A stretch of 64,000 nt of DNA, taken from contig NC_092803.1 of assembly GCF_040954645.1 (NCBI RefSeq), forward strand, positions 77,910,263 to 77,974,262, read 5' to 3'. Each line of letters begins with the position of its first letter. Position 1 is the stretch's first letter. Shown piece after piece: positions 23,001 to 29,000 of this stretch. The stretch comes from Diabrotica undecimpunctata. Taxonomy: Eukaryota; Arthropoda; Insecta; Coleoptera; Chrysomelidae. Made by a program: the position numbers and the translations under genes. Under the pieces are notes generated by a model, which was not told the DNA's origin, did not search any database, and worked only from the letters and a program-made list of their open reading frames with translations.

Positions 23001-26000
23001 TTGCTTCACGATAATGGACCAGCTCCCACTTTATAGTTTGTTCGTGATTCGTTTTGGCCAAAAAAAAAAACGTCATGTGGTACACCGAGGAGGGGAAACA
23101 TAGCTTTATTATCGTCTACGCATGAAGCGATGGTTTTTAATTTGATTTAATTTAATAAAATTTAACTTGAATTGAATTTAATTGAAGTCAATTGAATTGA
23201 ATTCAATTTAATTTAATTGAATTCAATTACATTCGATTCGATTATTTTATTTTTTAATACGTTTATGTATTTACTGCATTTATACACTCCAAGTAGTGTG
23301 TGGTCGCACGATTTGCGTTTAACTGCGCTTCATCGCGTTTTTATATTTTCATACCTCTGCGCAATCCATTTCACCGATCAACACATTCTATCCGGAACCG
23401 CGATAAGAAAGCTATGCTTCTAACAATACTGTAATGATTCCCCAGCCTCCATATTAGCCAGTCATGGCTCCGTGTGACTTTTTCCTATTTCCAAAAATAA
23501 AGAAAACTTTAAAGAGCCGTCATTTCACAAGCTTAAATGACATTAAAAGCGCATCGCTGATAGAACTACTGCTATCCCAAAGATCGAGTGTGAGAAGTGT
23601 CAAGGATTGGCAGTATAATAATAAATATTTTTCTCAAAAAACGAAAATTCCGGGTATTTTTTGAACACAACTATAAATATAATATATTAATTCAATCCGC
23701 ACAAGTGCAAAAAAAGTAAAGACGATACCATGTAAAACATACATACAATAATAAATATATATCAACAAACCTGCCGGCTTAAGAAAGTCATAGAGCTTCT
23801 ATTAACCCATGCAAAATTGGCAGCAGCTGCCATACTCTTCAAATAATCCTGACCTTCTTGACTGTTGATTCTGGCACATGCCAACTGCCTGTCGTTAGTT
23901 TCAATATTGTCCCTCTTCATGGCTTTTTCCATCTGAACAAGAGCATCTGTAGCAACTTGATGACCAAAACCACGACTTCCTGAGTGAATCATAACACAAA
24001 TTTGTCCTTTTTCTTCAATACCCATCTTACTGGCTGCCCATTTGTCATAGATTTCTTCTACTACTTGGATTTCGGCATAGTGGTTGCCAGCTCCCAACGT
24101 TCCTAACTTTAAAATTATATTAATATAAGTATAAATTGTAACATTTCATTTACAATGTAGTAGAGTTTTTATGATCTGATTTGGACAAGCATAAAATTAG
24201 TCGATTTTAAGTACCTCTGTCGATCATGGCCATGATCATTTTTAGAGATTATTGTCCAATATTTATGTAAAATTTATAGATTTTTGGTTACACCTGTTAA
24301 CATTCCTATTGGAATAGTTAGTATTATGTTAAACCGCAATGAAAAATCTCACATTTCCAATTTTAAAAATTGGTAATCTAATCATGACGCAGAGATAGTT
24401 TAAACAACAAAAATCAAAATTAAACAAATTTTGTTTTTATTACTTGGTGAAAAATTCTTTAAATAATTTAATTTTATCTGACTCATTTATATTGACAATT
24501 CAGACATAAATTATGCATTTTAGAGTACACGACTTTGCGAAATTAGACAGACAGACAGATAAATTTTAGAGTAGACAGACGAACACTGCCTCATGTTCAT
24601 GGTTTTAAGATCCTCTCTACGTCGTCTATCCATCTTTTACGGTGCCTTCCTCTTGTTCTATTTCCTTGGAGCTTCCATCTCTGGACTACTTTTACAGCTC
24701 GATTTTATATGTCTGTTATTTAAAAACATAAATGATATATATCCTCGATATGTTATTGACTTACTAATAGTGGTATTTTCTTTTTACTGATATCTTCTTT
24801 TAAGAGCGTAGGCGCAAAATTTCGGGCTAATGCTTTTTAAATGCAATCATTTTTTTCGAATCCTGAGAAAACTAACAAATATTTTTGAAAAATTTAAACG
24901 CAGAATGAAAGATTACATTATTACCGAGGGCCGAAAGTCCCTTAGAATAAACAAAAAGTATTTTTGAATGAGATATTTGAAATTAAAAATCACACTAAAA
25001 TTTTCTCTTTTTTTTTTCACCCCTGTAACTTATTAAAATAAACATTATAGAAATTTTCATGGACTTTCGGCCCTCAGTAATAATGTAGTCTTTCATTCTG
25101 CGTTTAAATTTTTCAAAAATACTTATTAGTTTTCTCAGGATTCGAAAAACATGAATGCATTTAATTAGCATTGGCCCGAAATTTTGCGCCTACGCTCTTA
25201 ATATGGGTAACCAGATCCTACAGCATTCTGCCGAGGAATTTGCGACGCAATTGGAATTATTTAGCATAATTAGAGCAGCTTCTTTGATTTTTCTATTTTT
25301 ACCATCTGTTTCTTTTAGGACTATACTTGAATCGTTCGGTTGAACCCTATGATTATTTTCCCATGTGTGTTTACATATTTGAAATCTATCAAATTCTCAA
25401 TTTTTAATATAATATTGATGTTCACTTATTCTAACATTTAATGGTCTCTATGTTTCCCCTAAATAAAAATGATCGCATTCACATGGTATTTTTTAAATAC
25501 AAATGTTGTGAATTTATTAAAAGGTTCAATATTTATAACACTTACGGATTTAATTTATTTCTTTATTTATATTAACTTATCTGACAATAATTTATTATAT
25601 CCGTACGTACAAATTCGCGAGCGCGGGTCTTGAGTATTAACTGCCCTCCATATAAAAATGTTGTATTTATATACGAAATCCTGATATACTAGAACAGCAT
25701 CGAAAGATCGAGAAGTTTAGCCGGCTCATTCACCATAATTTTGGTTCTAGACTTCCACCGAAATTTCTACAATAAAACAGAATAATTAGTCATAAAAGTT
25801 AGGCCAGTATATTTATCGTAACATTGCCCCCCTCTTAAAAGATGGTTCCTCCTGGAACCTTGTCGGGACTGGAACCGGAACTGTATGCTGGTATCGGCAA
25901 CTGGACCCTCTTTTACAACTTCCAGTTGTATAAAAATGACAAGGGACGGTTTTCTCTCCGCACCAGTAACTATGCGGATTGCAACAGACTAACACCTGGA

Positions 26001-29000
26001 CTTCGGTGTCTTTAAAGATCTCCTCCACCATATTTCGGATAACCCTCCAATCTAATTGGCGGCACTCCAACTTTGGCATGGCTAACTTTTGCACGTCGGA
26101 CTCTAGTACGTGCCCTCTCAATTGAAGTAAGGCTTCCCATACATCTCGGTAGGTAGGTTGGTCACGGGCAGTGTCTTTTGTTACCAGGTAGAAAAGGTAA
26201 CGTGATGCATCTTGGAGTTTCAAGGTTTTACCGGGAGCTGGCACTTGGCATTGAAGTTCTGCAACTCGACCAAACTTCCTTCGAAAGACGGATGCCAACC
26301 CTGGTGCGTCTTTGATACTGGCCGGGATGGTAAGGGCCAGCGAGTAGTCATCGGGGAGCGCGAGTAGATCTTGCTTTTCTTCAGTGGTAACACCATGTCT
26401 CGCTTTACCGGTACCTCCATAGGCACCCATGAATTCCTCAAACGTGAGGTCAGACACATCTTGGACTTGGTTTACTTCCACTTCTTCATCTACGTCGTGG
26501 TCACCTTCGAAAGATGCCAACCGGTTATGGTGTACTATCATCGGCTTTCCCCTCGGAATCTTGTTTATTCGGTAGATGACATCGTTGATCTTCTCCATGA
26601 TGAGGTATGGACCTTCCCAAAACTGCTGCAATTTGGGAGAACAACCTTTTCGCTTCTTGGGATTATACAGCCATACTTTGTCGTTCTTCTTAAAGCAACC
26701 CTTTTCGGCTTGTGTATCGTACCGTTTCTTCATTCGGTCGCTAGCAATCTGAAGGTGGGAACGGACCAACTCATGTACATCGTCCATTCTTCTTCGTAAT
26801 TCGATCACATAATCTTCACCTGCTACATCTTCTCCAGGTCGACACCCAAATTCTAGATCACAAGGTAGTCGCATTTCGCGTCCGAATAGGACTCTGGCTG
26901 GTGTCTGGCCCGTTGATTCGTTAACAGCAGATCTGTAGGCCATTGTGAAGAACGGAAGGTATTGGTCCCAGTCTCGCTGATGATCGGACACCATCTTTGT
27001 CAAATACTTGCCAACTGTCCTATTCATTCGTTCTACCATACCATCCGATTGCGGATGATACGCGGTAGTTCTTGTTTTCTTCATGCCTAGTCTATCACAT
27101 ATTCCTTGGAATAGATCACTTTCGAAGTTCCTGCCTTGGTCACTATGGATCTCCAAAGGCACTCCAAATCGGCTGATATATTCTTGGATCAACTTATCTG
27201 CAACGGTGGCGGCCTTCTGGTCTGGAAGTGCGTAAATCTCGACCCACTTAGTGAAGTAATCCATTACTACCAACATGTACTTGCCCCCATTTTCACTTTC
27301 TGGAAATGGCCCTGCAATGTCCAAAGCTATTCTTTCAAACGGGCTTCCAACATTATATTGTCTCATAGGAGCTCTCCTTTTCCGGTGAGGCCCGTTACTC
27401 GTAGCACAAATAGTACATTTCTTACACCAGTCTTTTACGTCGTCGGAACTGTTCATCCAATAAAACCGTTCCCGAATTCGCTGAAGGGTTTTCCTTACAC
27501 CAAAATGCCCTCCCGATGGACTGTCGTGTAACTGACGAAGTACTTCGGCTATTCTGCTCTTTGGAATCACCAACTGTCTTCTTTTCTCTGAACCGTCATC
27601 ATTTTCCAGGACTCGTTTGAGCAAGCCATCTTCGATGATAAATGAGTCCCACTGGGCCCAATACGTCTTAACTACTGAGCATAGGTTTGATATTTCCTGC
27701 CAAGGTGGTCGACGGTTTTCCTCTTTCCATTTTCGGATTTTCTGTATAACTGGATCTCTCTCTTGTTCTTCCCTTATCTTAGTGGGCGTCCAGTCGTCGT
27801 TGACAATCGTCGTTCTTAGCACTGCTGCTTCCTTGGATTCCGTTTTGTTGCAGTGGGGACACTCTGCTGGGCATGGCCGTCTGGAAAGAGAATCAGCGTT
27901 TCTGTGGCTAACTCCGGCTCGGTGCTCAATCTTAAAATCGTATTCTTGGAGTCGTTCGATCCACCTGGCTATCTGACCCTCTGGATTCTTAAACTGCATC
28001 AACCACTTAAGGGCGGCATGGTCGGTTCGGATTAAAAACTTCCTTCCATAGAGGTATTGATAGAAGTGCTCTACTGATTTCACTACTGCCAGAAGTTCTC
28101 TTCTCGTGACGCAATAATTCCGCTCAGGTTTTGAAAGAACTTTACTAAAATATCCGAGGACTCGTTCCTGTCCTCCTTGAATCTGAGACAGCACTCCTCC
28201 AATTCCCACATTACTTGCATCTGTATCTAAGATGAACTCTCCTTCTGGCAGTGGATACCCTAAAATTGGTGCTGTTATTAAATGCTTTTTCAAGGTCTCA
28301 AAGGCATTTTGGCAGTCTGTATCCCAGCGGTAATCTCTTGCTTCCTCCGTAAGTCGCGTTAATGGCTTAGCGATATCTGCAAACTTCTTAATAAACCTCC
28401 GGTAGTAAGTACATAGTCCAAGAAAACTTCTCACTTGATGTTTGTCAGTTGGTTTTGGCCATTCCTTAATGGAATCGATTTTTCCCTTATCCACGGCCAC
28501 TCCTTCTTTACTGACTATATGACCCAGATAATTGACTTTACCTTGAAATAGCTGGCACTTCTTGGGGTTTAGCATCAATTGGGCAGCTTTAAGTCGATTA
28601 AAAACGTTTTCTAAATTCCTCAAATGATCTTCGAATGTCTCCCCCAAGACGATTATGTCATCTAAATAAACCAGGCATGTTTTCCAAGATAACCCTCTCA
28701 ACACATTTTCCATAAGCCTCTCAAATGTCGCAGGAGCATTACAAAGTCCAAATGGCATAACGTTGAATTGCCACAATCCAGATCCTGTGGTGAAGGCTGT
28801 CTTTTCTTTATCTACTGGGTCCATTTCTACCTGCCAGTATCCAGACTTCAAATCCAAAGTGGAAAACAATTTACTTCCAGCCAATGTGTCCAATGTGTCA
28901 TCGATCCGAGGCAGACGATAACTATCTTTCTTGGTAACGTTGTTCAGCAAACGGTAATCCACACAGAACCTCGTCGTTCCGTCTTTCTTCTTAACCAGGA

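Follow-up and report, generated by a model that had tools for sequence, protein, structure and literature searches.

What does a retrotransposon of the beetle Diabrotica undecimpunctata carry behind its integrase, and what might that tail do there? ADP (adenosine diphosphate)-ribosylation serves as a signal in DNA damage and antiviral responses, and RNA viruses counter it with macrodomains. The locus considered here is a 64,000-nucleotide stretch of contig NC_092803.1 (assembly GCF_040954645.1, positions 77,910,263 to 77,974,262; "the window" below), which contains a complete gypsy-type long terminal repeat (LTR) retrotransposon on its minus strand, at window positions 25504-31754. An earlier interpretation made from the letters alone (the sequence-only reading) had proposed that a macrodomain of the TARG1/OARD1 kind is fused to the end of the Pol polyprotein of this element.

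Evidence for a TARG1-type macrodomain at the end of Pol

The C-terminal 191 residues of Pol (26388..25816) matched residues 4-134 of human TARG1 in phmmer with an E value of 6.9e-22 (81 bits), and the homology was significant over the whole domain. An AlphaFold2 model had a mean predicted local distance difference test (pLDDT) score of 86, with values of 82 to 98 in the 14 ten-residue blocks of the macrodomain, and in Foldseek ranks 1 to 8 were TARG1/C6orf130 entries without exception, so that the predicted fold is nearest to TARG1. The tail also matched the NCBIfam DarG model (E 8.8e-7, 28.5 bits), far under that model's cut-off of 250. The Pfam Macro profile (PF01661), a check that the sequence-only reading had named, speaks against the assignment: it gave no entry for the window tail at an E value as high as 1, and among five relatives scanned it exceeded its cut-off in P0128 only (24.1 versus 22), fell below it in P0125 and P0052, and was not listed for P0003 and P0084. 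The phmmer match, the DarG profile, and the predicted fold support an in-frame fusion of a TARG1-type macrodomain to a gypsy-type Pol. Both the domain and its location at the Pol C terminus were thus as the sequence-only reading had it, and the structure prediction that it suggested bore it out; the domain starts near 26388, slightly before the 26350 given there.

That reading had missed a CCCH zinc finger that follows the macrodomain. The finger scored 29.1 bits against PF00642 (cut-off, 20.5), and the spaced Cys3His is present. Its identity rests on sequence, since the structure matches did not cover this part.

The module recurs in beetle elements

A 385-residue query matched 121 proteins, the best 120 of which were listed, and the tail alone as the query returned only 5, probably because length limits excluded many fusions. 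Among 241 sequences examined, 105 reach the end of the integrase C-terminal domain, and 53 of these continue for at least 170 residues. A macrodomain follows integrase in all 53 (the window included), a count biased toward the macrodomain by a search query that itself contained it. The macro-matched rows that we took for element proteins come from Diabrotica, Harmonia, Aromia, Callosobruchus, Molorchus, Exocentrus, Gonioctena, Brassicogethes, Pyrocoelia, Aquatica (a macrodomain alone, whose element origin we infer), and Psylliodes (a fragment); all 11 genera are Coleoptera, from five families. By pattern count, the CCCH finger is present in 39 of the 53 proteins. In a wider set of 56 rows with a complete macro end and at least 40 residues beyond, the finger can be seen in 46; among the other 10, P0125 has a changed first cysteine in a finger that is otherwise largely preserved, and several seem to carry frame shifts. 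The fusion thus recurs in relatives, where the sequence-only reading had suggested looking for it, and these results show that a beetle gypsy-type LTR family carries an in-frame C-terminal macro and CCCH module across diverged members. Nine stretches of IMG/VR viral contigs matched the peptide pattern, and none encoded a relative.

Could the fusion instead be an assembly chimera, or the result of an element landing by chance next to a host OARD1 gene? Two D. virgifera models named "ADP-ribose glycohydrolase OARD1-like" in UniRef (P0121 and P0122) would fit such an explanation, but in both of them element linker letters precede the macrodomain, which makes them look like pieces of the element and not like host genes. 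An adjoining host gene is ruled out at this locus by a module that lies between identical LTRs and in frame with Pol, and an artefact or chance match is ruled out by the E values, the fold, and the recurrence, which already refutes it; the probability left to this explanation is negligible. On the practical side, beetle gene models named OARD1-like can be element fragments.

Origin of the module

The 30 sampled element macrodomains formed one clade (support, 100/97) apart from the TARG domains of Diptera and the OARD1 of vertebrates. One 19-row clade of the integrase tree (100/98) held every macro-bearing row; 10 of its rows show the macrodomain, and 9 end at most 48 residues past the matched integrase stretch. 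No macrodomain was seen in any of the 20 rows outside this clade, some of which are perhaps incomplete. Counting labels on the integrase tree gave 7 "macro" changes, compared with 7.4 in shuffles, and as labelled the tree shows no single origin; we set this count aside and did not use the figure of 7, because rows ending soon after integrase had been scored as macro-less, and the count also omitted two macro-bearing rows (P0032 and P0065). The simplest reading of the trees is one capture. A row from the firefly Pyrocoelia and one other row branched first on the macro tree (97/83), which fits an old capture within beetles, though horizontal transfer may also account for it.

The active site is intact in most members and altered in the window's group

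The codon equivalent to TARG1 Lys84, read directly, retains lysine. The sequence-only reading had noted a changed loop further on, which is indeed altered, and had aligned the Asp of that loop with the Asp of TARG1, which does not hold. In the phmmer alignment (TARG1 GCGLDRLQW, window EC--RQLDW), the window has a two-residue deletion, and its Asp cannot be equated with Asp125 because it stands directly before the Trp, where 57 of 60 family members have Asp or Asn.

These 60 full-length macrodomains, 21 of them from Aromia, were assigned to the element set by the search from which they came. Lys84 is kept in 56 (the other 4 have Arg), Asp125 in 51, and both in 50, with P0038, one of the rows counted as lacking Asp125, ending at that point; without Aromia, the figures for the 39 remaining macrodomains are 35, 30, and 29. 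When the loop columns were left out of the tree, every row of a nine-row group that includes the window's lacks Lys84, Asp125, or both, although the support for this group (87/87) is not strong. Eight of the nine lack Asp125, P0047 has Asp125 but Arg84, and Arg replaces the lysine in four (P0004, P0047, P0029, and P0014). The remaining 21 element rows on this tree have both residues, although the alignment of P0084, whose loop is shortened, is uncertain. In the macro tree that set 30 element macrodomains, P0121 not among them, against vertebrate and dipteran ones, seven of the nine rows formed a clade (97/81) and P0014 stood apart without resolution. Most simply read, one branch lost the canonical Lys/Asp pair and kept the domain. 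Judged by its residues, the window copy is a TARG1-derived domain and not a TARG1-type enzyme.

Loss of Asp125 does not prove inactivity, because DarG is an active hydrolase that has the lysine and no Asp125 equivalent (PMC7050489), and SCO6735 is reported to work with neither residue. The earlier suggestion that the domain may bind rather than hydrolyse is therefore possible for the window copy, in which Asp125 is gone and Lys84 stays, as in DarG; it does not suit the family at large, most of which keeps the pair.

Proposed function and its alternatives

Free complementary DNA (cDNA) ends and nicks arise during retrotransposition and are substrates of the type marked by PARPs. TARG1 releases ADP-ribose that is attached to acidic residues or to phosphorylated ends of DNA and RNA, as well as to thymidine when tested with DarT, and its K84A mutant fails to rescue DarT toxicity (excerpts of PMC7050489, PMC6582358, and PMC8501950). 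The sequence-only reading had suggested countering PARP-type silencing or steering integration as roles, both of them conjectural. Every functional step of the mechanism that we propose is one that we infer. A cellular TARG1/OARD1 gene would have been captured once, in the ancestry of the element lineage, and become the tail of integrase. Members with Lys84 and Asp125 would act as ADP-ribosylhydrolases on substrates met by the integrase-cDNA complex, candidates being phosphorylated nucleic acid ends and acidic residues of integrase or chromatin; removal of ADP-ribose would dampen the PARP-type responses that breaks and free cDNA ends provoke during retrotransposition, and the zinc finger would hold the macrodomain on nucleic acid. 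We prefer such an integrase-tethered eraser for the majority with both residues because TARG1 cleans such ends and retrotransposition makes them. The window's group, with its catalytic pair broken and the domain kept, would be an ADP-ribose reader or a DarG-type lysine-only hydrolase, either of which seems, by analogy, likelier than a standard eraser. Taken whole, this is our best explanation, and we rate its chance of being right a little below even.

Several observations weigh against it. No host beetle OARD1 was recognised among the best 120 of 1,359 matches to a human TARG1 profile, which were mostly vertebrate OARD1. In the window copy, Asp125 is missing and Leu replaces His32, a residue that its nearest relative, P0001, retains. 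Finally, in 13 of 14 comparisons the integrase C-terminal domain was better conserved than the macrodomain, with purifying selection judged by protein identity.

The last of these points would fit a captured tail that is kept only as the frame runs to the LTR, a spacer without an ADP-ribose function, as would the existence of decayed or frame-shifted copies. However, identity to the window was higher in the macrodomain than in the adjoining linker in 13 of 16 comparisons, with one tie and two lower values; P0003, P0006, and P0018 keep both catalytic residues at 67 to 74% integrase core identity to the window. The CCCH finger, for its part, exceeded a 12-residue spacer in 18 of 19 comparisons (1 tie). 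These identities speak for moderate constraint on both the macrodomain and the finger, and we consider a mere passenger quite improbable.

Alternatively, the macrodomain may tether integrase to ADP-ribosylated chromatin or breaks and so read integration sites, hydrolysis being incidental or lost. It lies C-terminal to integrase, the position of the chromodomain (excerpt of PMC3605345), and one group partly lacks the catalytic pair with the fold still kept in prediction; a pure reader would not need the pair, however, and 50 of 60 members keep it. We regard this alternative as possible but doubtful. A hydrolase of nucleic acid-linked ADP-ribose that uses the lysine alone, convergent on DarG, is unlikely for the window's group, given the Arg in four of its nine rows and the covalent reaction intermediate formed when TARG1 is mutated at position 125 (excerpt of PMC7050489).

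Returning to the integrase-tethered eraser, its boldest form is that the lineage carries a nucleic acid de-ADP-ribosylase on its integrase, which clears PARP-type marks from cDNA or RNA ends during retrotransposition, and that one group, the window's included, rebuilt the site into a lysine-only, DarG-like form or into a reader that chooses integration sites. We offer this tentatively, as a conjecture with the chances rather against it. If it is true, nucleic acid ADP-ribosylation would be an insect defense against transposons. That a lineage carrying a macrodomain spans several families of beetles suggests that ADP-ribosylation is a force on insect retrotransposons. Because elements that are otherwise alike have either an intact or a broken active site, the eraser and reader hypotheses can be compared side by side.

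Relation to known systems

The domain resembles TARG1/OARD1 (C6orf130), of the ALC1-like macrodomain class, in sequence, fold, and Lys84, and most family members share Asp125; TARG1, however, is a free-standing host enzyme, whereas here the domain belongs to a Pol polyprotein and is joined by a CCCH finger. DarG is the antitoxin of a bacterial toxin-antitoxin pair, its identity to the domain is 24%, and the cut-off of its NCBIfam equivalog model was not reached; a DarG-like working of the window domain is possible by analogy. Fish epsilon-type endogenous retroviruses carry macrodomain open reading frames (ORFs) (Basta et al. 2009, as cited in an excerpt of PMC4977317) and so are also retroelements with a macrodomain, but there the ORFs are additional ones, whereas in beetles the domain is fused to a gypsy-type Pol together with a CCCH finger. 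Host modification enzymes or readers are likewise on board LTR elements with AlkB demethylase (an orchid Gypsy element; excerpt of PMC9289625), DNA methyltransferases (dinoflagellate and charophyte retrotransposons; excerpt of PMC5890265), or chromodomains, which belong to other modification systems. No report of a TARG1-type macrodomain and CCCH finger fused to a gypsy-type Pol was found in the open-access literature searched; in PMC6338049, PMC5718144, and PMC5408684, "macro" occurs once, within "macrophage," and "ADP-ribose" is absent. Precedents exist for retroelement macrodomains and for captured modification enzymes.

A viral structure library held TARG1-like macro folds from VP8 of Kadipiro virus and from flavi-, virga-, and negev-like viruses associated with thrips, all ranking high. 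VP8 ranked first (E 1.3e-14, 34% identity), but with a root mean square deviation of 6.6. These are RNA viruses without an integrase, and the likeness is one of structural rank that does not imply kinship of the macrodomains; the same host domain may have been acquired by insect RNA viruses on more than one occasion.

Layout of the element and its surroundings

Two LTRs, a Gag, and a Pol in the order protease, reverse transcriptase, RNase H, and integrase, all four detected in a scan of Pol in four pieces, assign the element to Ty3/Gypsy (Table 1), the one phylogeny bearing on this class being the integrase tree of the element's own relatives. The Pol frame is uninterrupted from upstream of the protease to its end, and its stop codon overlaps the LTR, an overlap that the earlier reading had missed. 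Pfam domains in Gag, whose ATG was placed by counting from the stop-to-stop translation, are SAP (E 8.9e-7), Retrotrans_gag (E 2.7e-8), and a CCHC knuckle (E 1.9e-4); short coiled-coil-like repeats come after the N-terminal SAP domain, which is unusual for a Gag. Near-matching four-base sequences (CAAA/CAAT) flank the element. The repeat that it entered is present without interruption at about 2863-3163, a paralogous empty site.

Table 1 Features of the element and of a sibling copy in window coordinates
Feature	Position	Strand	Basis or content
5' LTR	31435..31754	-	320 bp
Gag ORF	30042..31355	-	N-terminal SAP, coiled-coil-like repeats, Retrotrans_gag, CCHC zinc knuckle
Pol ORF	25813..30081	-	Open throughout; -1 relative to Gag; protease, reverse transcriptase, RNase H, integrase, macro, CCCH
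Integrase piece	26491..27390	-	rve core, E 3e-14; Integrase_p58_C, E 2.4e-13
TARG1/OARD1-type macrodomain	25978..26388	-	phmmer, AlphaFold2 model, Foldseek, NCBIfam profile
Lys84-equivalent codon	26176..26178	-	Lysine retained
Altered loop	26047..26070	-	LECRQLDW versus TARG1 IGCGLDRLQW; no Asp at Asp125 place
CCCH zinc finger	25885..25953	-	C-x7-C-x5-C-x3-H; PF00642, E 9.3e-7; CPSF4 chain, E 8.7e-6
3' LTR	25504..25823	-	320 bp; identical to 5' LTR; holds Pol stop codon
Decayed sibling copy	55473..56993	+	Integrase to CCCH; in-frame stops; altered macro region

The decayed sibling copy has 75% protein identity to the element across integrase to CCCH. It was dropped as material for a ratio of nonsynonymous to synonymous substitutions (dN/dS), as it evolves as a pseudogene. 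An LTR-like remnant (57482-57576) accompanies it, and a tandem-like repeat with spacings of mostly 8 and 14 bases lies beside the decayed copy at 57140-57446. Just outside the intact element lies an inverted repeat (24800-24975 and 25026-25201), with two 176-base arms that are 87% complementary and 50 bases apart. Nearby are ORFs that resemble part of an RtcB-type RNA ligase (23762-24097, minus strand) and the start of a mariner-type transposase (22644-22949, plus strand).
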